A program made the translations under genes and the position numbers. Below, in pieces: positions 17,802 through 29,431 of a stretch of 64,000 nucleotides of DNA (the stretch's first letter is position 1; each line of letters opens with the position of its first letter). This stretch comes from Kineococcus mangrovi (GTDB taxonomy: Bacteria; Actinomycetota; Actinomycetes; Actinomycetales; Kineococcaceae). Location: positions 186,001 to 250,000 of the forward strand of contig NZ_JBGGTQ010000006.1 of assembly GCF_041320705.1 (NCBI RefSeq), in the 5' to 3' direction. A model generated the notes under the pieces. The model saw only the letters and a program-made list of their open reading frames with translations, had not been told where the DNA came from and ran no database searches.

Positions 17802-20228
17802 GTGATTCGGGACCTCGGACCTCATCGTCGCGGACCGTTGCGCCGACACACCCGTGTGCCACCGCCACGCTCCCGCCGCGCCCCGCGTCCCGTCGCCACC
17901 CCCGGTCCCGTCCCGGTCGAGCAGGAGGCCCGGGTTCCGGTGGTGGTGCTCGGGCTGCTCGTGGTGACCGCGTCGGCCCAGGTCCCGCTGGCGTCCACCG
18001 GCGGCGGCGACCCGTGGCCCTCGGTGCGCTTCCTGCTGACCCTCGTGGCCGTCACGGCCACCTGGCGGGTGCTGGCGTGGCGCGCCCGGACGGCGACCGC
18101 CGAACACCTGGTGTGGCGGATGTTCAGCTGGGGCTGCCTCCTCCACGGGATCGGGGCGGTCTCCGGCGCGGCCTTCACCGCCGTGCCCGCGCTGCGGACC
18201 CACGCCGATCTGCCCGGCGCGGTCTGCGCGGTCCTCACCTTCCCGCTGGCCTACCGCGCGCTGGTCCGGTGGAGCCGGCGCGGCGCCGGGGTGGACCCCG
18301 ACGACCTGCTGAACGGGACCAGCTCGGTCCTGGTGGTGGCCGCCGCCCTCGGCCTCCTGGTGACGCCCGGGGCGGGGGCGGGGCGGTTGCTGGTCCCGGT
18401 GCCCTGGACCGTGCAGCTGCTGGTCCTGCAGAACGCGTGCCTGCTGGTGCTGCTCGGTGCCGCCCTGACGGCGGCCTTCACCGCCCGGTTGCACCGCGAC
18501 GCGCGGGTCTGGCTGGTCTTCGCCGCCCTCGTCCTGGCCGGGGCGGGCGGTGCGGCCGCGCTCCTGGGCGGGGGCACCCACCCGGCGTGGGAGCTGCCGC
18601 TGTGGACCGCCGGCCTGACGGCGCTCGCCGGTGCGGCCGTGCTCAGGTCCCGGTTCGAGCCGACGCAGACGTCCGACCCCGTGAAGTCCACCGTCGGCTC
18701 CTTCCTCGTCGTCAGCGCGGGACTGGCGACCACCACCGCGGGGCTGGTGACCGGCGCCCCCGTCGCGCTGGCCCTGTGCGCCCTGCTCGGCGTGCTCGGG
18801 TCGAGCGTGCGGCTGCTGGTCAACCTCTTCGCGCTCGCCCAGCTCGCGGTGAGCCGGCGGGAGGCCCTGACCGACGACCTCACCGGCATCGCCAACCGCC
18901 GGGCCCTCCTGCGCCACCTCGACGCCCTCGTCCTGCAGCGCCGACCGGGGGACCGTTCCGGCGGGCCGGCCCCGGGCGTGCAGGTGCTCGTCTTCGACCT
19001 CGACCACTTCAAGGAGGTCAACGACAGCCTCGGGCACGGGGCCGGGGACGCGCTGCTGCAGATGCTCACCCAGCGCATCGCACCGGAACTTCCGGCGGCG
19101 GCGGTCTTCGCCCGCCTCGGCGGGGACGAGTTCGTGGTCGTCAGCGACGACGGTTCCCCGGGCGAGCGCGTGCTGGCCGTGCTCGAGGGCGCCCAGCGCG
19201 AACCGTTCCCCGTCGGCGGGATCAGCGTCCACACCGACCTCAGCGTGGGCCGCGCGACCTGGACGGCGTCCGGGCCGCACGCCGACGGTGAGGGCGGGCA
19301 GCGCGCGGACGCGGCGCTCCTGCTGCGCCGGGCGGACAGCGCGATGTACGACGCGAAGCGGACGGGCGCGTCCGTGGTGACGTTCGACCCCGCCCGCCAC
19401 GGTGACACGCAGGGGTTGCTGTCGACGGTGGCCGAGCTGCGCCACGCCATCACCGCCGGTCAGCTCCGCGTCCACTTCCAGCCCCAGCTGCACGCCGGCG
19501 ACCGGACCCTGGCCGGGGTCGAGGCGCTCGTCCGGTGGCAGCACCCGGTCCGCGGCCTGCTCGCACCCGCGCAGTTCCTGCCGCTCGCCGAGACGCACGG
19601 CCTCATGGACGCGGTGACGCGGGAGGTGCTGCGCCAGAGCGTGGCGCAGCAGGCGCTCTGGCGCCGCCGCGGTCTGCCGGTCCGGGTGTCGGTGAACCTG
19701 TCGGCGGGCACTCTGCTGGACGTCTCGCTGCCCACGACGGTCGCGGCGCTGCTGGCCCACCACGACGTCCCGGCCACGTCCCTGGTCCTGGAGGTCACCG
19801 AGACGGCCCTGCTGCGCGAACCCGAGCGCAGCCTGGCGGTGGTCGAGGCGGTGCGCGCCCTCGGCGTGCAGGCGAGCATCGACGACTTCGGCACCGGCTA
19901 CTCCTCGCTCACCCAGCTGCGCCAACTGCCCGTCAGCGAGCTCAAGCTCGACCGGTCCTTCACCGCCGACCTGCTCTCCGACCCGCGCGTGGCGGCCATC
20001 GTCGCCCACACCGTCGGGCTCGCCCACGCCCTGCGGCTGCGGGTCGTCGCCGAGGGCGTCGAGGACGAGGCCACGCTCGCGGCGCTCACCGGGTTGGGGT
20101 GCGACGAGACGCAGGGTTTCCTGCACGCCCGGCCGCTCCCGGCCCGGGAGTTCGAGGCGTGGTACGCCACCCGGTACGGGGCGGTCACGGCTGCCGGGCG
20201 CTCGGGGGCGACGACCCCCGCCGGGTGA
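17802..20228 (+). CDS. Membrane-bound GGDEF-EAL cyclic-di-GMP protein
   Basis: 808 residues from a GTG at 17802; the exact start is uncertain. Residues about 45-340 contain eight or so hydrophobic segments forming a membrane sensor. The GGDEF domain begins at REALTDDLTGIANRRAL and has an intact GGDEF at 440-444; no RxxD inhibitory site is seen just before it. The EAL domain has EALVRW at 574, EVTET, DDFGTGYSSL, KLDRSF and EGVED, all residues expected for phosphodiesterase activity. Both synthesis and hydrolysis of c-di-GMP are therefore possible. It stands alone, divergent from the dehydratase gene. Confidence 0.93.
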   Translation: MIRDLGPHRRGPLRRHTRVPPPRSRRAPRPVATPGPVPVEQEARVPVVVLGLLVVTASAQVPLASTGGGDPWPSVRFLLTLVAVTATWRVLAWRARTATAEHLVWRMFSWGCLLHGIGAVSGAAFTAVPALRTHADLPGAVCAVLTFPLAYRALVRWSRRGAGVDPDDLLNGTSSVLVVAAALGLLVTPGAGAGRLLVPVPWTVQLLVLQNACLLVLLGAALTAAFTARLHRDARVWLVFAALVLAGAGGAAALLGGGTHPAWELPLWTAGLTALAGAAVLRSRFEPTQTSDPVKSTVGSFLVVSAGLATTTAGLVTGAPVALALCALLGVLGSSVRLLVNLFALAQLAVSRREALTDDLTGIANRRALLRHLDALVLQRRPGDRSGGPAPGVQVLVFDLDHFKEVNDSLGHGAGDALLQMLTQRIAPELPAAAVFARLGGDEFVVVSDDGSPGERVLAVLEGAQREPFPVGGISVHTDLSVGRATWTASGPHADGEGGQRADAALLLRRADSAMYDAKRTGASVVTFDPARHGDTQGLLSTVAELRHAITAGQLRVHFQPQLHAGDRTLAGVEALVRWQHPVRGLLAPAQFLPLAETHGLMDAVTREVLRQSVAQQALWRRRGLPVRVSVNLSAGTLLDVSLPTTVAALLAHHDVPATSLVLEVTETALLREPERSLAVVEAVRALGVQASIDDFGTGYSSLTQLRQLPVSELKLDRSFTADLLSDPRVAAIVAHTVGLAHALRLRVVAEGVEDEATLAALTGLGCDETQGFLHARPLPAREFEAWYATRYGAVTAAGRSGATTPAG

Positions 20229-20260
20229 GCACCGGAGCGGCCCGGCCGGGCGACATGAAG

Positions 20261-20340
20261 GTTTCACGGCGGTGAAACACGGCCGAAACACCGGCTCGGA
20301 CAGACTCGGAGCCATACCTGTCGAGTGACAGGTATCCGAG
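20261..20340. promoter_or_regulatory. Two strong inverted repeats before the guanidine/urea carboxylase operon
   Basis: In the 136-bp gap before the permease gene, GTTTCAC (20261-20267) pairs with GTGAAAC (20272-20278) around GGCG. Then ATACCTGTC (20314-20322) pairs perfectly with GACAGGTAT (20327-20335) around GAGT. CTCGGA at 20305-20310 and TCCGAG at 20335-20340 extend the second repeat outward. The second palindrome has the size and form of a TetR operator, and the operon ends with a TetR gene, so autoregulation is likely. The conserved segments of a ykkC guanidine riboswitch are not visible. Confidence 0.7.
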
Positions 20341-20364
20341 CTCCACCGACCGGAGGGATCGACG

Positions 20365-21951
20365 ATGTCCGTTCCCGCACCCCGTCCCCGGCCCGACCGG
20401 GCCGCCCCCGACAGCAACGACCTCGGTGGGTTCGGGTACCGCCAGCAGTTGCGGCGCGACGTGGGGCCGTTCGCCTCGTTCGCCGCCGGGTTCTCGTTCG
20501 TCTCGATCCTCACGACGGTGTTCCAGCTCTTCGGCCTCGGTTTCGGCTTCGGTGGCGCCGGGTTCTTCTGGACGTGGCCCACCGTGTTCGCCGGGCAGCT
20601 GCTCGTGGCCCTCTGCTTCGCGGAACTGGCGGCCCGCTACCCGATCTCGGGGGCGGTGTTCCAGTGGTCCAGCCGTCTCGCCGGCACCGACGTCGGCTGG
20701 TTCACGGGCTGGATCATGGTCGTCGGCCAGGTCCTCACCGTCGCCACCGCCGCCATCGCCCTGCAGGCCGTGCTGCCCGCGATCTGGCCCGGTGCCCAGC
20801 TCGTCGGCGGGTCCGGCGCGGACTCCTCGCCCGTCTCGGCGACCGGTGCGCAGAACGCGGTAGTCCTCGGGGTGGGCCTGCTCGTCCTCACGACCCTGGT
20901 CAACGTCATCGGTGTGCGGCTCATGGCCGTCATCACCTCGGCGGGCGTGGTGGTCGAGATCGTCGGGGTCGTCGCCCTCGTCGTGGCGCTGTTCAGCCAC
21001 GCCGAGCGCAGTCCCTCCGTCGTCGTGACGACCTCCGGCGCGGGGGAGGGGAACTACCTCGGGCTGTGGCTGGCCAGTTCGCTCATGGCCGCCTACGTCA
21101 TGGTCGGTTTCGACTCGGCCGGGGAACTGTCCGAGGAGACCCGGGCCCCGCGCGCCACCACCCCCCGCACGATCCTGCGGGCCCTCGTCGTGTCCGGGGC
21201 CGGGGGTGCCCTGCTGCTCGTCGGCGGCGTGATCGCCGCTCCCAGCCTCACGGACGGCTCCCTCGCCTCCGGCGGCCTCGCCGGTGTCCTCACCGCGCGC
21301 CTCGGGGACGTCGGCAGCCGGGTGCTGCTGGCCTGCGTGGCCGTCGCCGTCGTCGTCTGCACGCTCGCCGTCCAGACGTCCGGGTCGCGGATGGTCTACT
21401 CGATGGCCCGCGAGCGGGCGTTCCCCTTCGCCTCCGTCCTCGGCCGGGTCTCGGCGCGCACCGGGACGCCCATCGGCGCGGCCGTCCTCGTCGGGGTCGG
21501 CGCCGCCGTCGCGCTCGCCGTGAACTGGCACCAGAGCGCCGTCTTCACGGCCCTGGCGAGCCTGTGCATCGCGATGCTCTACCTGGCCTACCTCGGTGTC
21601 ACGCTGCCGCTGCTGGTCCGCCGACTGCGCGGGGAACTCCCCTCCGGGACCGACGAGTTCGGCCGCCCGCTGTTCTCCCTGGGCCGCTGGGGCGTGCCCG
21701 TCAACGTCCTCGCCGTCGTCTACCAGACGGGCATGGTCGTCAACCTCGCCTGGCCCCGCGCCGGCGTCTACGACCTCACCGACGGCACCTGGTGGCTGCA
21801 GTGGAGCGCCCTGCTCTTCATCGCCGCCACCGTGCTCGTGGGGGTCGTCGTCCACCGGCGCAACCGCGCCCGCCACGGCGGCCCCATCGTCCTGGGGCGG
21901 TTGCAGGTCAGCGCCCCCACCGAGTCCGACCGGGTGGAAGAACCCGCATGA
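20365..21951 (+). CDS. APC-family permease of the guanidine/urea carboxylase operon
   Basis: Membrane transporter, 528 residues, ATG at 20365 preceded by CGGAGGG. Around twelve hydrophobic segments follow a hydrophilic start; GYRQQLRRDVGPFASFAAGFSFVSIL and the segment GFDSAGELSEETRAPRATTPRTIL are typical of amino-acid/choline-type permeases. These are often found with urea-carboxylase-associated proteins and probably import guanidine or a related nitrogen compound. Its stop overlaps the next gene by four bases (ATGA), the first of a chain of coupled overlaps. Confidence 0.9.
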   Translation: MSVPAPRPRPDRAAPDSNDLGGFGYRQQLRRDVGPFASFAAGFSFVSILTTVFQLFGLGFGFGGAGFFWTWPTVFAGQLLVALCFAELAARYPISGAVFQWSSRLAGTDVGWFTGWIMVVGQVLTVATAAIALQAVLPAIWPGAQLVGGSGADSSPVSATGAQNAVVLGVGLLVLTTLVNVIGVRLMAVITSAGVVVEIVGVVALVVALFSHAERSPSVVVTTSGAGEGNYLGLWLASSLMAAYVMVGFDSAGELSEETRAPRATTPRTILRALVVSGAGGALLLVGGVIAAPSLTDGSLASGGLAGVLTARLGDVGSRVLLACVAVAVVVCTLAVQTSGSRMVYSMARERAFPFASVLGRVSARTGTPIGAAVLVGVGAAVALAVNWHQSAVFTALASLCIAMLYLAYLGVTLPLLVRRLRGELPSGTDEFGRPLFSLGRWGVPVNVLAVVYQTGMVVNLAWPRAGVYDLTDGTWWLQWSALLFIAATVLVGVVVHRRNRARHGGPIVLGRLQVSAPTESDRVEEPA

Positions 21952-22781
21952 GCACCCGCAACACCGCGACGGTCCTCGCCGCCCGCGACGACGCCCGCGC
22001 CCGGGGCGGGACGACGTCCGACTGGATGCCGCACCTGCCGGCGTCGAGCTCCCCGCACCCGCCCGCGGGCGTCGACCCGGCCCTGCTCACCTGGGCCGAG
22101 ACCGTCGCCCCCGGGGGCTACACCTCCCGGGTCCTCGCCCGCGGGACCCGGCTGCGCCTGTCCGACGTCACGGGCGACGCCTGCGCCCACGTCCTGCTGT
22201 TCTCGGCGGTCGCGCCGTGGGAACGGTTGAACGTCGCGGACACGCAGAAGATCCCGTGGCAGGCCTACCTCGGCGAGGGGCACCCACTGCTCTCGGGGGA
22301 CGGACGCGTGCTGGCGACGGTCGTCGCCGACACGTCCGGTCGGCACGACGCGTTCTGCGGCACCAGTTCCGACGCGTGGAACGAGCGACGCTACGGCGAC
22401 GCGGCGCCCCAGGGGCCGAGCCCGTCCGGCCGGGGGCTGTTCACGCTCGCGGCCGCCAAGCAGGGGCTGGAACCCCGCGACCTGCCGCCGAGCGTGAGCT
22501 TCTTCCAGGGTGTCCGGGTCGAGGCCGACGGGGGGTTCCGCTGGCTCGGGTCCGCCGGCCCCGCCGAGGTCGACCTGCTCGCCGAACTCCCGCTGACCGT
22601 CCTCGTCGCGAACACCGCGCACCCGCTGGACCCCCGCCCGCGGTTCACCGTCGGGCCGCTGCGCGTCCACGCCTGGCGCTCGACCCCCACGTCGGCCGCC
22701 GACGAGCGGTTCACCCGCACCCCCGAACTGCACCGCGCGTACCTGAACACCCTCGACCACGCGGAGGCGCGAGGACTGTGA
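21948..22781 (+). CDS. Urea carboxylase-associated protein 1 (DUF1989; carboxyguanidine deiminase subunit family)
   Basis: 277 residues of the DUF1989 family (UAAP1). The core has RVLARGTRLRLSDVTGDACAHVLLF, ADTQKIPWQAYL, FCGTSSDAWNERRYG and VSFFQGVRV, which carry the Cys and acidic residues of the family. In bacteria that degrade guanidine, the UAAP1/UAAP2 pair has been described as a deiminase converting carboxyguanidine to allophanate. The gene is coupled on both sides by four-base overlaps, so the two subunits are made together. Confidence 0.88.
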   Translation: MSTRNTATVLAARDDARARGGTTSDWMPHLPASSSPHPPAGVDPALLTWAETVAPGGYTSRVLARGTRLRLSDVTGDACAHVLLFSAVAPWERLNVADTQKIPWQAYLGEGHPLLSGDGRVLATVVADTSGRHDAFCGTSSDAWNERRYGDAAPQGPSPSGRGLFTLAAAKQGLEPRDLPPSVSFFQGVRVEADGGFRWLGSAGPAEVDLLAELPLTVLVANTAHPLDPRPRFTVGPLRVHAWRSTPTSAADERFTRTPELHRAYLNTLDHAEARGL

Positions 22782-23449
22782 CCACCACCGACAGCACCAC
22801 CCTCGACCGGGGTTCCCCGCTGGTCCCCGGCGAGGTCGTCCTGGACGAGCGCGTCGCGCCCCGGGCCCCCTGGTCCGCCGTCGTCCGCGCCGGGCACGTC
22901 CTGACCATCGTCGACGTGGGCGGCAACCAGTCCGCCGACTGCCTGCTGTTCGCCGACGCCGACCGCAGCGAGCGGTACAGCGTCCCGGACACCCTGGCCT
23001 GGCAGGGCAACGCCTACGTCCGGACCGGGACCGTCCTGCGCAGCCAGTTCGGCACCCCGCTGGCGACCGTCGTCGCCGACGAGGTCGGGCGCCAGGACAC
23101 CATCGGCGGCGCGTGCGGGAAGGAGTCGAACACCCTGCGGTACGGCCACCACACCGCCCACCAGCACGGGTGCCGCGAGAACTTCCTCGCCGAGGGCGCC
23201 CGGCACGGCCTGTCCGCCCGCGACCTCGTCTCCAACCTCAACTGGTTCATGAACGTCCCCGTCGAACCCGACGGCTCGCTCGGCATCGTCGACGGGATCT
23301 CCGGCCCCGGCAAGCGCGTCGCGTTCCGCGCCGAGGTCGACCTCCTCGTCGTCGTCTCGAACTGCCCGCAGGTCAACAACCCCTGCAACGACTTCGACCC
23401 CACCCCCCTGCGCATGCTCGTCACCACCCCCGCGGGAGGCTCCCGGTGA
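22778..23449 (+). CDS. Urea carboxylase-associated protein 2 (DUF1989; carboxyguanidine deiminase subunit family)
   Basis: 223 residues, the second DUF1989 subunit (UAAP2). Diagnostic segments are TIVDVGGNQSADCLLF, RYSVPDTLAWQGNAYV, DTIGGACGKESNTLRYG, FLAEGARHGLSARDLVSNLNWFMNVPVE and the Cys-rich SNCPQVNNPCNDFDPTPLR. GTG start at 22778 overlaps the stop of UAAP1. Together with UAAP1 it probably deiminates the carboxylated product made by the biotin enzyme that follows. Confidence 0.9.
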   Translation: MTTTDSTTLDRGSPLVPGEVVLDERVAPRAPWSAVVRAGHVLTIVDVGGNQSADCLLFADADRSERYSVPDTLAWQGNAYVRTGTVLRSQFGTPLATVVADEVGRQDTIGGACGKESNTLRYGHHTAHQHGCRENFLAEGARHGLSARDLVSNLNWFMNVPVEPDGSLGIVDGISGPGKRVAFRAEVDLLVVVSNCPQVNNPCNDFDPTPLRMLVTTPAGGSR

Positions 23450-26400
23450 CCTTCGACACCCTGCTCGTCGCCAACCGCGGCGAGATCGCCCGCCGCGTCC
23501 TGCGCTCGGCGCGCGCCCTCGGGCTGCGCACGGTCGCCGTCCACTCCGACGCCGACCGCGCCGCCCCGCACGTCCGCGAGGCCGACACCGCGGTCCGGCT
23601 CGGGCCCGCCCCCGCCCGCGAGTCGTACCTGCGCACCGACGCCCTCGTCGAGGCGGCGCTGGCCACCGGCGCCGGGGCCGTCCACCCCGGCTACGGGTTC
23701 CTGTCCGAGAACGTCGAGTTCGCCCGCGCCTGCGAGGCGGCCGGCGTCGCGTTCGTCGGCCCGACCCCCGAGCAGATCACCGCGTTCGGCAGCAAGCACA
23801 CCGCCCGCGAGCTCGCGGCCCGCGCCGACGTCCCGATGCTCGCCGGGACGGGCCTGCTCGCCTCCGCCGAGGAGGCCGTCGCGGCGGCCGAGGCCGTGGG
23901 CCTGCCCGTCATGCTCAAGGCGACTGGCGGGGGCGGCGGCATCGGGATGCAGGCGTGCGCCACGGCCGAGCAGGTCCGCGAGGCGTACGACCGCGTCGTG
24001 CGGCTGGCGTCGGCGAACTTCGGCACCGCGGGCGTGTTCCTGGAACGGCTCGTCCGGCCCGCCCGGCACGTCGAGGTGCAGGTGTTCGGCGACGGCCGTG
24101 GCGGCGTCGCCGTCGTCGGCGACCGCGACTGCTCCCTGCAGCGGCGCCACCAGAAGGTCGTCGAGGAGGCCCCCGCCCCCGCCCTGCCCGACCACGTCCG
24201 CCGCCGCGTCGCGGGGACCGCGGCCGACCTCGTGGCCTCCGTGCGGTACCGGTCGGCCGGGACCGTGGAGTTCGTCTACGACCCGGTCCGCGAGGAGGCC
24301 GCCTTCCTGGAGGTGAACACCCGGCTGCAGGTCGAGCACCCCGTCACCGAACTCGCCTACGGCGTCGACCTCGTCGAGCTCATGCTGCGGCTGGCCCGCG
24401 ACGGGGCCGACGACCCCGTCGTCCGCGACGCCCTCGACCGGGAGTGGACCGCGACCGGCGTCGCCGTCGAGGCCCGCGTCTACGCCGAGGACCCCGCCAA
24501 GCAGGACGCCCCCTGCCCCGGGCTCGTGACGAACGCGCGGTTCCCGGAGATGTCCGGGGTGCGCGTCGACGGCTGGGTCGAGACGGGCACCGAGGTGACG
24601 CCGTTCTACGACCCGCTGCTGGCCAAGGTCGTCGCCGTCGCGCCCGGCCGGGACGCCGCCCTCGACCTGCTCGGCGAGGCCCTCACCGAGTGCCGGGTCG
24701 ACGGGGTCGTCACGAACCTCGGTCTGCTGCGCTCCCTCGTGGCCGACCTGCCCCTGCGTTCGGCCACCCACTCCACGTCCACGCTCGACGTCGGCCCGTC
24801 CACCGGGCGCGACCCGGACCCGCGCGTCGACGTCCTCGCGCCGGGGGCCATGACCACCGTGCAGGACCTGCCCGGCCGCCTCGGCCACTGGCAGGTCGGT
24901 GTGCCCCCGTCGGGCCCCATGGACCCGTTGTCGTTGCGCGAGGCCAACCTCGCCGTCGGGAACCCGCCCACGGCGCCCGGGCTGGAGATCACCGCGACCG
25001 GCCCGACGCTGCGGTTCTCCACCGAGTCCGTCGTCTGCGTGACCGGGGCGCCCGCGACCGTCACGCTCGACGGCGTCGAGGTGCCGCAGTGGGAACCCGT
25101 GGAGGTCCCCGCCGGGGGCGTCCTGGCGGTCGGGACCGCGACCGGTCCGGGCCTGCGGCTCGCCCTGGCCGTCCGCGGCGGCATCGACGTGCCGCGGTAC
25201 CTCGGCAGCGCCTCGACGTTCACCCTCGGCGGGTTCGGCGGCCACGGCGGCCGGGCGTTGCAGGCCGGGGACGTGCTGCGCCCCGGTGCCCCGGAGGGTG
25301 AGGGGTTCACGACGATCCCCGGCCCCGTGCCGGCCGAGCGCCGCCCCGAGTACACCCACGACTGGCTGCTCGCCGTCACCGAGGGCCCGCACGGCGCCCC
25401 GGACTTCTTCACCCGCGCCGACCTCGACGAGTTCTACGCGACCGACTACGAGGTCCACCTGAACTCCGCGCGCACCGGCGTCCGGCTCGACGGCCCGCGC
25501 CCGCGCTGGGCGCGCCCGGACGGCGGCGAGGCCGGGCTGCACCCGTCCAACATCCACGACACCCCGTACGCCGTCGGCGCCGTGGACTTCACGGGCGACA
25601 CCCCGATCCTCCTCGGACCCGACGGCCCGTCGCTGGGGGGTTTCGTCTGCCCCGCCGTCGTCACGTCCGGCGACCTGTGGAAGCTGGGGCAGCTGCGACC
25701 GGGTGACCGCGTCCGCTTCGTCCCCGTGCGCGAGGAGCACGCCACGGCTCCCCGGCTGCGGCGCACCGACCTCGCGACCGCCGCAGGTGGCGGTGACGGT
25801 GACGACGGGGTCCTCGCCCGCGTCCCCGGCACGCCCGCGCGCCCCGCCGTGACCTACCGGCGCGACGGCGACGCCAACGTCCTCGTCGAGTTCGGCGACA
25901 TGGTCCTCGACCTCGGGCTGAGGATGCGCGTGCACGCCCTCCTGCGCGCGCTGCAGGAGCACCGTCCGGCCGGCGTCGTCGACATCACCCCGGGCATCCG
26001 CTCGCTCCAGGTGCACACCGACGCGAGCGTCCTGCGCGCCTCCCGGCTCGTCGGGCTGCTGCGCGAGCTCGACGACGCGCTGCCGCCGACGAGCGACCTC
26101 GTCGTCCCGTCCCGGCGCGTCCGGCTGCCGCTGTCCTGGGACGACCCGGCCACGCACCTGGCCATCGAGCGGTACGTGGCCGGCGTGCGCGACGACGCCC
26201 CGTGGACCCCGTCGAACATCGAGTTCATCCGTCGCGTCAACGGCCTCGACTCCCTCGACGACGTGTTCCGCACCGTCTTCGACGCCAGTTACCTCGTGCT
26301 CGGCCTGGGCGACGTGTACCTCGGCGCCCCCGTCGCGACGCCGCTGGACCCGCGGCACCGCCTCGTCACGACGAAGTACAACCCCGCCCGGACGTGGACG

Positions 26401-27072
26401 GCGGAGAACTCCGTCGGGATCGGTGGCGCGTACCTGTGCGTCTACGGCATGGAGGGCCCCGGCGGGTACCAGTTCGTCGGACGGACCACCCAGGTCTGGA
26501 ACCGCTTCCGCCGCGGCGGGTTGTTCGAGGACGACCCCTGGGCCCTGCGGTTCTTCGACCGCATCGAGTGGTACCCCGTCTCCGCCGAGGAACTCCTCGA
26601 CCTGCGCGCCGAGACCGACGCCGGCCGCGGTCACGTCGAGACCGAGGAGGGGGAGTTCTCCCTCGCCGAGCACGAGGCGTTCCTCGCGGCGAACGCCGTC
26701 TCGATCGCCGCGTTCCGCGCGCGGCAGACGGCGGCCTTCGAGGCGGAGAAGGAGCGGTGGCGGGCGTCGGGCGAGTTCGACGTGCGGCCCGAACCCGCGC
26801 CGGCCGTCGCGGCCGGGCCCGTCGACCTGCCCGCCGGCGCGGTCGGCGTCCGAGCCCCGTTCGCCGCCACGGTGTGGCAGGTGTCCGCGGACGCCGGGGC
26901 CGCCGTCGGTGACGGGGACCGCGTGCTGGCGCTGGAGGCGATGAAGATGGAGACCGCCGTGACCGCCCCCGTGGAGGGGGAACTGCTCGAGGTGTACGTG
27001 AAACCCGGGGAGGCCGTCACGGCCGGCCAGGTGCTGTTCGCCGTCCGCCCCCTGGAAGGAGCGGTGGCGTGA
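23446..27072 (+). CDS. Urea/guanidine carboxylase (biotin-dependent)
   Basis: 1208 residues, full length. Biotin carboxylase domain first (LLVANRGEIARRVLRSA, ATP loop TGGGGGIGMQ, HVEVQVFGD, CSLQRRHQKVVEEAP, EVNTRLQVEHPVTE), then the allophanate-type carboxyltransferase domain related to KipI/KipA (VGVPPSGPMDPLSLREANLA, GGFGGHGGRALQAGD, LGDVYLGAP, TTKYNPARTWTAENSVGIGG). The C-terminal biotinyl domain has EAMKMET with Lys1167 as biotin site. It carboxylates guanidine or urea with ATP and bicarbonate. The two DUF1989 genes favour guanidine as substrate; the residues deciding urea versus guanidine were not checked. GTG overlaps the previous stop, and the stop overlaps the hydrolase gene. Confidence 0.93.
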   Translation: MTFDTLLVANRGEIARRVLRSARALGLRTVAVHSDADRAAPHVREADTAVRLGPAPARESYLRTDALVEAALATGAGAVHPGYGFLSENVEFARACEAAGVAFVGPTPEQITAFGSKHTARELAARADVPMLAGTGLLASAEEAVAAAEAVGLPVMLKATGGGGGIGMQACATAEQVREAYDRVVRLASANFGTAGVFLERLVRPARHVEVQVFGDGRGGVAVVGDRDCSLQRRHQKVVEEAPAPALPDHVRRRVAGTAADLVASVRYRSAGTVEFVYDPVREEAAFLEVNTRLQVEHPVTELAYGVDLVELMLRLARDGADDPVVRDALDREWTATGVAVEARVYAEDPAKQDAPCPGLVTNARFPEMSGVRVDGWVETGTEVTPFYDPLLAKVVAVAPGRDAALDLLGEALTECRVDGVVTNLGLLRSLVADLPLRSATHSTSTLDVGPSTGRDPDPRVDVLAPGAMTTVQDLPGRLGHWQVGVPPSGPMDPLSLREANLAVGNPPTAPGLEITATGPTLRFSTESVVCVTGAPATVTLDGVEVPQWEPVEVPAGGVLAVGTATGPGLRLALAVRGGIDVPRYLGSASTFTLGGFGGHGGRALQAGDVLRPGAPEGEGFTTIPGPVPAERRPEYTHDWLLAVTEGPHGAPDFFTRADLDEFYATDYEVHLNSARTGVRLDGPRPRWARPDGGEAGLHPSNIHDTPYAVGAVDFTGDTPILLGPDGPSLGGFVCPAVVTSGDLWKLGQLRPGDRVRFVPVREEHATAPRLRRTDLATAAGGGDGDDGVLARVPGTPARPAVTYRRDGDANVLVEFGDMVLDLGLRMRVHALLRALQEHRPAGVVDITPGIRSLQVHTDASVLRASRLVGLLRELDDALPPTSDLVVPSRRVRLPLSWDDPATHLAIERYVAGVRDDAPWTPSNIEFIRRVNGLDSLDDVFRTVFDASYLVLGLGDVYLGAPVATPLDPRHRLVTTKYNPARTWTAENSVGIGGAYLCVYGMEGPGGYQFVGRTTQVWNRFRRGGLFEDDPWALRFFDRIEWYPVSAEELLDLRAETDAGRGHVETEEGEFSLAEHEAFLAANAVSIAAFRARQTAAFEAEKERWRASGEFDVRPEPAPAVAAGPVDLPAGAVGVRAPFAATVWQVSADAGAAVGDGDRVLALEAMKMETAVTAPVEGELLEVYVKPGEAVTAGQVLFAVRPLEGAVA

Positions 27073-28748
27073 ACCCGCTGGAGCAGAAGGTCCGTCAGGC
27101 CTACGACCGCATCGCGCGGGCCGACCGGCCCGAGGTCTGGATCGCGCTGCGACCGGTGGAGGACGTCGTGGCCGAGGCCGCGTCGGTCGACCCGGACGCA
27201 CCGCTGGCGGGGGTGCTCGTCGCGGTCAAGGACAACATCGACGTCGCCGGCCTGCCGACGACGGCCGCCGCCCCGTCCTTCGCGCACCGGCCCGAGCGCG
27301 ACGCCACCGCCGTCGCGCGGCTGCGGGCCGCGGGCGCCCTCGTGCTGGGCAAGACGAACCTCGACCAGTTCGCCACCGGTCTCGTCGGGACGCGCAGCCC
27401 CCACGGTGCGGTGCGGCACGCGTTCGCCCCCGACCGGATCTCCGGCGGGTCGAGCTCCGGGTCCGCCGTCGCGGTGGCCCTCGGGTTCGTCGACGTCGCG
27501 CTCGGCACGGACACGGCCGGGTCCGGTCGCGTCCCCGCCGCCCTGCACGGGCTCGTCGGGGTGAAACCCACCCGCGGACTGGTCCCGACGACGGGTGTCG
27601 TCCCGGCGTGCCGCAGCCTCGACTGCGTCACGGTCTTCGCCCGGGACCTGCCCACCGCACGCCGCGTCGCGGAGGAGGTGTCCGGTCCCGACGGCCTCGA
27701 CCCGCTCGCCCGTGAGGACTCGCCCCTGCCGGCTCCCCCCGCACGGCCGCGCATCGCCGTCCCCGCGGCAGAACACCTGCGGGGCATGGCGGACGGGTGG
27801 GCCGAGGCGTTCACCCGGTACGTCGAGCGGGTGCGCGCCGGTGGCGCCGACGTCGTGGAGGTGGACGTCGCCCCGCTGCTGGAAGCAGCCGAACTCCTGT
27901 ACGGCGGGGCGTTCGTCGCCGAGCGGACAGCCGCCGTCGGCGCTCACATCGCCGAGAACGCGCACCTGGTGGGGACCGACCTCGACCCGACCGTCGCCGG
28001 CATCGTCCGCGCGGGGGAGGACGTCACGGCCGTGGAGGTGTTCCGCGACCTCGAACGCCTCGACGTCCTCGCCGCCCGCGCCCGGGAGCTGCTCGCCGGC
28101 ACGACCGCGCTGCTCACCCCGACGACGACGTGGCACCCGACGCTCGCGCAGGTGGCGGCCGACCCCGTGGGGGCCAACTCGCGGATGGGCCGGTTCACGA
28201 ACTTCGCCAACCTCCTCGACATGGCCTCCCTCGCGGTGCCCGCGGGGACGGTGGACGGGTTGCCGTTCGGCGTGATGCTGACGGGGCCGGCGTTCAGCGA
28301 CCGCACCCTCGCGGCGCTCGCGCAGCGGTGGGCGGACGCGGCCGTCGAGCTGCTCGTCGTCGGGGCGCACCTGTCCGGTCAGCCCCTCAACCACGAGCTC
28401 GTCGCGGCCGGCGCCACGCTCGTCGGGCCGGCCGCCACCGCCCCGCTGTACCGGCTCTTCGCCCTCGACACCGTCCCGCCCAAGCCGGGGATGGTGCGCG
28501 ACCCCGCCGGCGCCGGCGTGCAGGGCGAGGTGTGGCGGCTGCCGTCGTCGGGGTTCGGCGCCTTCGTCGCGGCGCTGCCGCAGCCCATGACGATCGGCGC
28601 GGTGACGCTCTCCGACGGTCGCGTCGTCCGCGGCTTCCTCGCCGAGCCCGCGGCCCTGGAGGGAGCGCGGGAGATCACCGCGGCCGGGTCGTGGCTCGCC
28701 GCCCGCGCCGCGCCGACCGGTGGGGCCGTGGCAGCATCGGCGGGGTGA
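27069..28748 (+). CDS. atzF: Allophanate hydrolase
   Basis: 559 residues. The amidase-signature domain carries the Ser-cisSer-Lys machinery: lysine in GVLVAVKDNIDVAG and the serines in ISGGSSSGSAVAVALG, plus GTDTAGSGRVPAALHGLVGVKPTRG. After about residue 460 comes the family's extra C-terminal domain (LFALDTVPPKPGMVRD, VWRLPSSGFGAFVAALPQPM). It splits allophanate into ammonia and carbon dioxide, the last step of the pathway. GTG start overlaps the carboxylase stop by four bases and its stop overlaps the TetR gene. Confidence 0.92.
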   Translation: MNPLEQKVRQAYDRIARADRPEVWIALRPVEDVVAEAASVDPDAPLAGVLVAVKDNIDVAGLPTTAAAPSFAHRPERDATAVARLRAAGALVLGKTNLDQFATGLVGTRSPHGAVRHAFAPDRISGGSSSGSAVAVALGFVDVALGTDTAGSGRVPAALHGLVGVKPTRGLVPTTGVVPACRSLDCVTVFARDLPTARRVAEEVSGPDGLDPLAREDSPLPAPPARPRIAVPAAEHLRGMADGWAEAFTRYVERVRAGGADVVEVDVAPLLEAAELLYGGAFVAERTAAVGAHIAENAHLVGTDLDPTVAGIVRAGEDVTAVEVFRDLERLDVLAARARELLAGTTALLTPTTTWHPTLAQVAADPVGANSRMGRFTNFANLLDMASLAVPAGTVDGLPFGVMLTGPAFSDRTLAALAQRWADAAVELLVVGAHLSGQPLNHELVAAGATLVGPAATAPLYRLFALDTVPPKPGMVRDPAGAGVQGEVWRLPSSGFGAFVAALPQPMTIGAVTLSDGRVVRGFLAEPAALEGAREITAAGSWLAARAAPTGGAVAASAG

Positions 28749-29431
28749 GCGCACGGGCCGGGACGGGACGGGTCGGACGACCCCGCAGCCGGGGGGGCGC
28801 CGACGACGGCCGGACGCCGCGCCAGGAGATCCTCGACGCCGCGGCGGCGCTGTTCTCCGAGTCCGGTTTCGCGGCGACCTCGACGCGCGCCATCGCCGAC
28901 CGGGTCGGCATCCGGCAGGCCTCGCTCTACCACCACTTCGCGGGCAAGGACGAGATCCTCCTCGAGCTGCTCGAGGCGTCCGTGCGCCCCACCCTCGACG
29001 TCACGGGCGCGCTGCGCTCGCAGGCGCCGGACGCGGCGAGCGCGCTGCACGCCCTGGTCGTCGTGGACGTGGGGACGCTGCTGGCCGGTCCGCTGGGCAC
29101 CACCGCGCTGTACGTCGCGCCGGAGGTGCAGCAGCCGCGCTTCGAGCAGTTCCGCGAGCACCGCCGCCAGCTCGGCGAGGTCTACGCCGAGCTGGCGCGG
29201 GACGTCGTCCCGGCCGGGTTCCCCGTCGACGCGCACGTGCTCGGCCAGGTGTGCCTGCACCTGGTCGAGATGGCCGCGACCCTGCCCGGTGTCGACCAGC
29301 GGCCGCAGCAGATCGCCGCGGCCTGCCTCGGGGCCTGCGGCGTGACGGGGGACCGGCTCGCGGCGGCCGCGCGGGGCAGCGAGGACGTCCGCGCCGGCCT
29401 GTCCGCACCCGCCGGGGCCGGTCACCGCTGA
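28745..29431 (+). CDS. TetR-family regulator closing the guanidine/urea operon
   Basis: 228 residues. The N-terminal HTH is visible: EILDAAAALFSESGFAATSTRAIADRVGIRQASLYHHFAGKDEIL, a standard TetR recognition region. The C-terminal ligand domain (YVAPEVQQPRFEQFREHRRQLGEVYAEL) is unassigned. It is co-translated from the allophanate hydrolase stop, so the operon makes its own regulator; the inverted repeat at 20305-20340 is the likely site. No terminator-like hairpin was seen right after it. Confidence 0.88.
   Translation: MSARAGTGRVGRPRSRGGADDGRTPRQEILDAAAALFSESGFAATSTRAIADRVGIRQASLYHHFAGKDEILLELLEASVRPTLDVTGALRSQAPDAASALHALVVVDVGTLLAGPLGTTALYVAPEVQQPRFEQFREHRRQLGEVYAELARDVVPAGFPVDAHVLGQVCLHLVEMAATLPGVDQRPQQIAAACLGACGVTGDRLAAAARGSEDVRAGLSAPAGAGHR

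Follow-up and report, generated by a model that had tools for sequence, protein, structure and literature searches.

Related systems and the locus

The TetR-family protein AmtR is known as a nitrogen regulator, and the operon closest to the one studied here was described as one of its clusters. According to PMC4222082, no AmtR cluster is more condensed than Krad_0901-0906 of Kineococcus radiotolerans, where start and stop codons overlap and a permease, two unknown reading frames, a carboxylase, an amidase and amtR follow each other in one run with GTGA and ATGA overlaps. We analysed a window of 64 kb (the whole stretch, positions 186,001 to 250,000 of contig NZ_JBGGTQ010000006.1 from Kineococcus mangrovi), in which an operon of six plus-strand genes has the same layout (Table 1). 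An earlier note on this DNA had described a permease, two DUF1989 subunits, a biotin carboxylase, an allophanate hydrolase and a TetR regulator joined by four-base overlaps, and all five of five junctions were indeed seen, reading ATGA, GTGA, GTGA, GTGA and GTGA in gene order. The gene set is a known kind of operon in a new genome, and its layout is already in print for K. radiotolerans under the label of a urea carboxylase; there the function is called speculative, and the section on the cluster, in the part available, does not discuss the guanidine residue, the operator or the GlnR box. To this we add a reassignment from urea to guanidine, which we hold to be probable, and a proposal for the inducer of AmtR.

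In Mycobacterium smegmatis, AmtR (msmeg_4300) represses msmeg_2184-2189, which encode the same functions, and binds upstream of msmeg_2184, and GlnR is required for the nitrogen control of these genes (PMC4222082, in part). GlnR binding upstream of msmeg_2184 was reported from chromatin immunoprecipitation sequencing and gel shift in the excerpts available. The amtR gene is unlinked there, whereas it is the last operon gene here. For AmtRsav of Streptomyces avermitilis, the accessible text of PMC8864220, quoting Chen et al. 2013, gives the 22-bp consensus TAtCTGTCa-n2-cGACAGATAT, which is fitted by positions 20314-20335 of the window, but amtR runs in the opposite direction and the permease lies elsewhere in that species (PMC4222082, in part). 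AmtR of Corynebacterium glutamicum is also a TetR-family protein and its box CTAT-N6-ATAG resembles CTGT-N6-ACAG here, although it is described, in the passages available, as a global regulator relieved by GlnK. Guanidine carboxylase, carboxyguanidine deiminase and allophanate hydrolase are also combined in Raoultella and Klebsiella, with guanidine-I/II riboswitches and ABC importers (PMC12186494), whereas AmtR, GlnR and an APC permease take these places here.

One and the same operon seems to be treated in two separate literatures: papers on nitrogen control speak of a urea carboxylase regulated by AmtR, and in those on guanidine a single Asp and riboswitches serve to define the guanidine carboxylases. 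A literature search over titles and abstract starts, with most subscription papers outside its reach, found no link between AmtR and guanidine, so that one may exist in print; within that same scope, the papers naming both concern insects.

We consider it quite probable that the operon serves guanidine assimilation and has two regulators, GlnR as an activator under nitrogen shortage and AmtR as a repressor. At the level of sequence, this reading is built on the gene content, the guanidine-type residue of the carboxylase, the identity of AmtR, the conservation of operator and box and the lack of a known riboswitch. The permease would import guanidine, the carboxylase would convert it to carboxyguanidine with ATP and biotin, UAAP1 and UAAP2 would deiminate carboxyguanidine to allophanate, and allophanate hydrolase would set free two more ammonia; guanidine as the substrate, both of the permease and in K. 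mangrovi itself, is what we infer. Under nitrogen scarcity, GlnR on the 11-bp repeat would activate transcription. AmtR would repress it from the 22-bp palindrome, which lies about 54 bp downstream of where the GlnR box begins, until an inducer releases it; the most likely inducer is guanidine or an intermediate of the pathway. Being the last gene of the operon, amtR is probably autoregulated.

Substrate type of the carboxylase

Guanidine and urea carboxylases are set apart by Asp against Asn at position 1330 of the Kluyveromyces lactis enzyme, and the criterion for guanidine carboxylases also demands Asp at position 1584 (available part of PMC11410670). In the printed alignment with 3va7/5i8i, D714 of the carboxylase aligns with Asn1330, and D956, in an LGLGD motif, aligns with D1584. 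Nine of 11 genus genomes carry a full-length carboxylase, and all nine genus copies (the window and eight others) have Asp at the position of 1330. The same source, as far as available, places carboxyguanidine deiminase in the DUF1989 family, with clades defined by a tree; here the DUF1989 pair was placed in UAAP1 and UAAP2 by the profile scores of TIGR03425 and TIGR03424, both over cut-off, which agrees with the earlier suggestion of a carboxyguanidine deiminase. A urease-alpha match (139.5 bits) is present in this genome as well, which would make a urea carboxylase redundant. Taken with the guanidine-III riboswitch that precedes a gene for an SMR/SugE-like exporter (see below), Asp714, the UAAP1/UAAP2 pair and the urease elsewhere support the guanidine-type carboxylase that the earlier note had proposed.

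AmtR and its predicted operator

The six best PDB sequences for the regulator have E-values from 1.5e-34 to 2.3e-24, and the next best follows at 2e-13. Three of the six are named AmtR, namely 5e57 (E 1.5e-34), 5mqq and 6gy3, while 5dxz, 5dy0 and 5dy1, named only “TetR family”, are near-identical to 5mqq in the printed alignments. By these matches, the TetR-type regulator of the operon is AmtR.

The leader between the upstream gene (end at 20228) and the permease start (20365) has 136 bases, and the AmtR consensus is fitted there with its CTGTC-N4-GACAG core and TA../..TA flanks. The whole palindrome is found at one place in the genome and the core at three. The core is exact in all nine genus copies and also stands upstream of such operons in other families. 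To describe its distribution we used a class sample of 393 genomes, 53 of which have the carboxyltransferase domain; 53 loci from 50 of these, the eight genus copies and the window make 62 loci, matches on two tiny contigs (G043, G029) being left out. At the specificity position, 47 loci have Asp, 13 have Asn and two have Met, and the Met loci (L080, L081) are excluded from the Asp/Asn counts. The operator core is exact in 32 of the 47 Asp-type loci and has at most one mismatch in 42, compared with exact cores in 92 of 8,987 windows of 330 bp drawn at random from these loci. None of the 13 Asn-type loci has an exact core upstream, and two have one with a single mismatch. Control by TetR rather than by a riboswitch, as put forward in the earlier note, gains support at sequence level because the TetR protein is AmtR and the leader carries an operator of the AmtR consensus.

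Two inverted repeats had been described in the leader, one with nested arms. The palindrome at 20314-20335 stands, but the arms of the first repeat, GTTTCAC-ggcg-GTGAAAC (20261-20278), match exactly in just two of the nine genus copies: that of the window and that of L019, which has a carboxylase 94% identical to the window's. The nested arms did not hold up: by eye, the outer arms CTCGG../..CCGAG are whole only in these two copies (2 of 9), so they are probably incidental.

GlnR-type box and candidate promoter region

In place of the first inverted repeat, a direct repeat GAAAC-n6-G[ACT]AAC with an 11-bp period is kept in all nine genus copies, so the first repeat was rejected as a second TetR operator. 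Direct repeats of the GAAAC-n6 type are a form of the GlnR box (PMC10704036 and PMC3662644, in part), and a second, nitrogen-status input through GlnR is therefore likely, judged from the motif. GAAAC-n6-GAAAC occurs once in the 64 kb and in none of 100 shuffles, a pattern picked after the site was seen. Positions 20274-20290 fit the M. smegmatis GlnR consensus Gn2AC-n6-GnAACA as given in the available excerpt, though this consensus alone is not significant (two matches against a mean of 0.81 expected). The strict pattern GTNAC-n6-GAAAC-n6-G has two sites genome-wide, neither in the operon leader. One strict match (L017:1501-1523; G000:C1:577208) lies about 39 bp upstream of a minus-strand reading frame (L017:758-1462) that ends where the urease-alpha match starts, so the urease may be GlnR-controlled too.

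In eight of nine genus copies, 54-55 bp separate the start of the upstream box from the operator core, and in the ninth (L020) boxes lie at 43 and 64 bp. When genus, class and named loci were pooled (overlapping sets, so that the counts hold doubles), an operator with at most one mismatch was found in 105 of 177 upstream regions, from 97 loci. In 47 of the 105, the core is preceded by a relaxed GlnR box that begins 52-56 bp upstream; 54 bp is the commonest distance (33 times), and 43 bp, one repeat further on, is next (16 times). The 22 other offset classes of 5 bp that were tallied have 0-7 each, except for one with 26, which holds the 43-bp peak. A GlnR_1st match (PF21695, 149 bits, G000:C2:178903-179232) is present in the own genome, and GlnR matches over cut-off were found in 16 of 18 genomes searched. 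Between box and operator, the candidate -10-like element CAGACT occurs in seven of nine genus leaders, as GAGACT in L025, and is missing in L026; a sigma-70 consensus scan found no promoter.

Table 1. Features of the K. mangrovi operon and its leader (positions in the window)
Feature	Position	Strand	Basis
GlnR-type box TTCAC-n6-GAAAC-n6-GAAAC (11-bp direct repeats)	20263..20289	+	conserved direct repeats, by sequence
CAGACT, candidate -10-like element between box and operator	20301..20306	+	inferred by eye
AmtR operator ATACCTGTC-gagt-GACAGGTAT, predicted	20314..20335	+	core CTGTC-N4-GACAG 20318-20331
APC-family permease, predicted guanidine importer	20365..21951	+	Pfam AA_permease_2; TIGR03428 647.5 bits, under curated cut-off 740.45
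UAAP1 (DUF1989), predicted carboxyguanidine deiminase subunit	21948..22781	+	TIGR03425 278 bits, over cut-off
UAAP2 (DUF1989), predicted carboxyguanidine deiminase subunit	22778..23449	+	TIGR03424 308 bits, over cut-off
Biotin-dependent carboxylase, predicted guanidine carboxylase (Asp714 signature)	23446..27072	+	TIGR02712 1733 bits, full-length member
Allophanate hydrolase	27069..28748	+	TIGR02713 652 bits, NF006043 722 bits, both over cut-off; AH_C domain
amtR, TetR-family repressor (AmtR) by sequence	28745..29431	+	best PDB matches AmtR

Guanidine riboswitches

The earlier note had held that the leader has inverted repeats instead of ykkC riboswitch segments, and the lack of a riboswitch is borne out. 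In the Rfam scan, no family reached the gathering score anywhere in the window, and a permissive scan of 20150-20450 gave three minus-strand matches (E 0.51, 2.2 and 6.2) and no guanidine riboswitch; by these two scans a known riboswitch in the leader is rejected. In the own genome, guanidine-I had no match and guanidine-II one match below cut-off (contig C12). A guanidine-III aptamer was found on contig C9 (G000:C9:43434-43497), while the operon is on C6. This aptamer precedes an SMR gene (PF00893, 68.2 bits, over cut-off), for which the best NCBIfam model is SugE (76.7 bits, below the model cut-off of 126). In the congener G003 (L024), a guanidine-III aptamer with an exporter adjoins amtR in convergent orientation. 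Since guanidine-III sits at the exporter and AmtR at the operon, the host seems to rely on an RNA sensor to control export and on AmtR to control assimilation, unlike the riboswitch-led operons of Raoultella and Klebsiella.

Among the genomes scanned, guanidine-I is over cut-off in one of 59 (G082, which has Met at the key position and no AmtR match), guanidine-III in 41 of 59 and guanidine-II in four of 47. By comparison of positions, no guanidine-I/II/III match listed falls in the leader of an Asp-type operon. These genome-wide Rfam scans were run with stricter filters (over 40 genomes), and guanidine-IV was covered only as far as it is in Rfam 15.

Distribution of the operon type across the class

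UAAP1 and UAAP2 are both present in 47 of 47 Asp-type loci and in none of the 13 Asn-type loci, and AmtR lies within the locus in 44 of 47 against 0 of 13. Genome-wide (E up to 1e-16), AmtR was found in all 39 Asp-type genomes of the class sample and in none of the 10 Asn-only genomes. Three genomes (G037, G343, G398) hold both enzyme types, with the UAAPs and amtR beside the Asp copy only. Strong urease-alpha matches (115 bits or more; G398, G229 and G377, with weak matches, counted as lacking urease) occur in 36 of 47 Asp-type genomes, the own one included, in 30 of 39 when the eight congeners are set aside, and in one of 10 Asn-only genomes. A further named set was made up of the best 80 among 585 confirmed stretches, so it was not drawn at random, and it overlaps the class sample (L121/L133 with L074/L049). 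It contains 73 Asp-type carboxylases (70 with UAAP, 63 with amtR in the locus) and seven of the Asn type.

A number of results weigh against the guanidine operon with AmtR and GlnR as we read it. At most three carboxylase and seven AmtR candidates were scored per genome, so absences are not proof. AmtR-like proteins are present in nine of the 344 other sampled genomes, three of them weak, and some AmtR copies lie away from any carboxylase, two checked cases beside ABC transporters; at L168 and L175 the gene divergent from AmtR is an oligopeptide-type ABC transporter. No box stands at 52-56 bp in 58 of the 105 operator-bearing upstream regions, and of the congeners with operon and box, two gave no full GlnR match, G003 (none) and G007 (weak), both fragmented assemblies. 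Except for L164, the Asn sequences form one clade of 19 tips (support 99, FastTree), and a test of independent pairs had one usable pair. As the Asp/Asn split is essentially one of two clades, the contrast of 39/39 to 0/10 amounts to about a single evolutionary event, and Fisher tests of it are not relied on for this reason. In the named set, L164 (Acidimicrobiaceae MAG, metagenome-assembled genome, palsa_655), which branches outside the Asn clade, combines an Asn-type carboxylase with UAAP1, UAAP2 and amtR in one operon. The presence of AmtR therefore follows the type of operon and not the residue; a switch to urea or an error of the MAG is possible in this case.

AmtR copies away from carboxylases include L168, L170, L174, L175 and L177 (family code f12), each with two AmtR-type operators upstream. 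They perhaps mark a second AmtR target, another nitrogen import system.

Ligand domain of AmtR

Among 105 AmtRs of carboxylase loci, pooled from two overlapping locus sets with doubles included, 102 have seven ligand-domain residues in common: D108, Y123, E127, F136, R140, Y147 and E175. Four of the seven are different in the PDB sequences 5dxz and 5mqq, which have E, I, Y and F at 108, 127, 136 and 147; we take both to come from C. glutamicum, whose AmtR would then differ from the carboxylase-linked class in the ligand domain. In 5e57 the first six residues are kept, and the glutamate for 175, printed three columns off, fits a shared LVE-x-VI pattern. A guanidinium ligand would go well with these conserved acidic and aromatic residues and would sit against D108, E127, E175, Y123, F136 and Y147. 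This is only suggestive, because the first six residues are also found in strong AmtR matches at other loci (11 of 12 checked). The exception is L172, a copy that looks Corynebacterium-like (the genus is a guess) and reads E-Y-T-Y-R-F; four of its six readable residues differ, and the seventh falls outside the alignment. The seven-residue signature points to a function that the ligand domain has kept, and is no proof of a ligand.

As a known nitrogen regulator that would repress a likely guanidine operon, AmtR is a good candidate for a guanidine sensor. We tentatively propose, as a possibility, that the carboxylase-linked AmtR class is a transcription factor sensing guanidine (or carboxyguanidine or allophanate), and that the actinobacterial AmtR “urea” regulon is a guanidine-assimilation regulon. 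If true, this would be the first guanidine-responsive regulatory protein, and it would explain the failure of urea to release AmtR; the effector of AmtR would be found, for a protein with a known structure (5e57) and operator.

Alternative explanations

The operon might instead be a urea carboxylase/allophanate hydrolase operon, in which AmtR and GlnR regulate urea breakdown as in the AmtR literature. In NCBIfam, TIGR02712 and TIGR03428 (“permease, urea carboxylase system”) carry the names of urea carboxylase and its permease, and the AmtR papers speak of urea metabolism, which also tells against a guanidine operon. Yet the specificity position is Asp rather than Asn, a urease is present in the same genome, and UAAP1/UAAP2, which have no known role in urea carboxylation, are missing from all 13 Asn-type loci in the class sample and from six of seven in the named set. 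Urea, like amino acids, also left the binding of AmtR to DNA unaffected in M. smegmatis, where no effector was found (PMC4222082, in part), and we regard urea breakdown as quite improbable. Still more remote is an RNA switch, in which the strong hairpin with nested arms (z -2.95) would be an unrecognised aptamer or attenuator. The 136-nt leader does fold better than each of 200 shuffles, but the longest stem of the fold is the palindrome, as expected of a DNA operator, and the recurrence of the palindrome core in other families and the incomplete outer arms in most genus copies also speak against an RNA switch. No terminator was found in the leader, which has no Rfam match, and an unknown RNA structure was rejected since, despite the good fold, the operator palindrome is the only stem seen conserved.

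If the operon serves guanidine, AmtR may still sense no metabolite of the pathway, and would then answer a PII/GlnK-type nitrogen signal or merely be overridden by competition from GlnR. GlnK is the signal proposed for C. glutamicum AmtR, for which the available excerpts report relief by GlnK and no small effector identified, a point that tells against guanidine sensing as well. The title of Petridis 2016 names competitive binding of AmtR and GlnR, and M. smegmatis without AmtR kept its nitrogen control intact (PMC4222082, in part). Such a signal would leave the seven shared ligand-domain residues in 102 of 105 carboxylase-locus AmtRs, and their divergence in 5dxz/5mqq and L172, harder to understand, and we think it rather unlikely.

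Other observations

The gene upstream of the operon (17802-20228) encodes a GGDEF-EAL protein on the same strand and ends 136 bp before it. The two carboxylases with Met at the Asp/Asn position, L081 (G082:C100) and L080 (G123:C163), have UAAP-type proteins alongside, and L081 also has a guanidine-I riboswitch directly ahead of its permease match, about 3 kb upstream of the carboxyltransferase domain. Met-type carboxylases may represent either a third substrate class or a guanidine enzyme that breaks the Asp rule.

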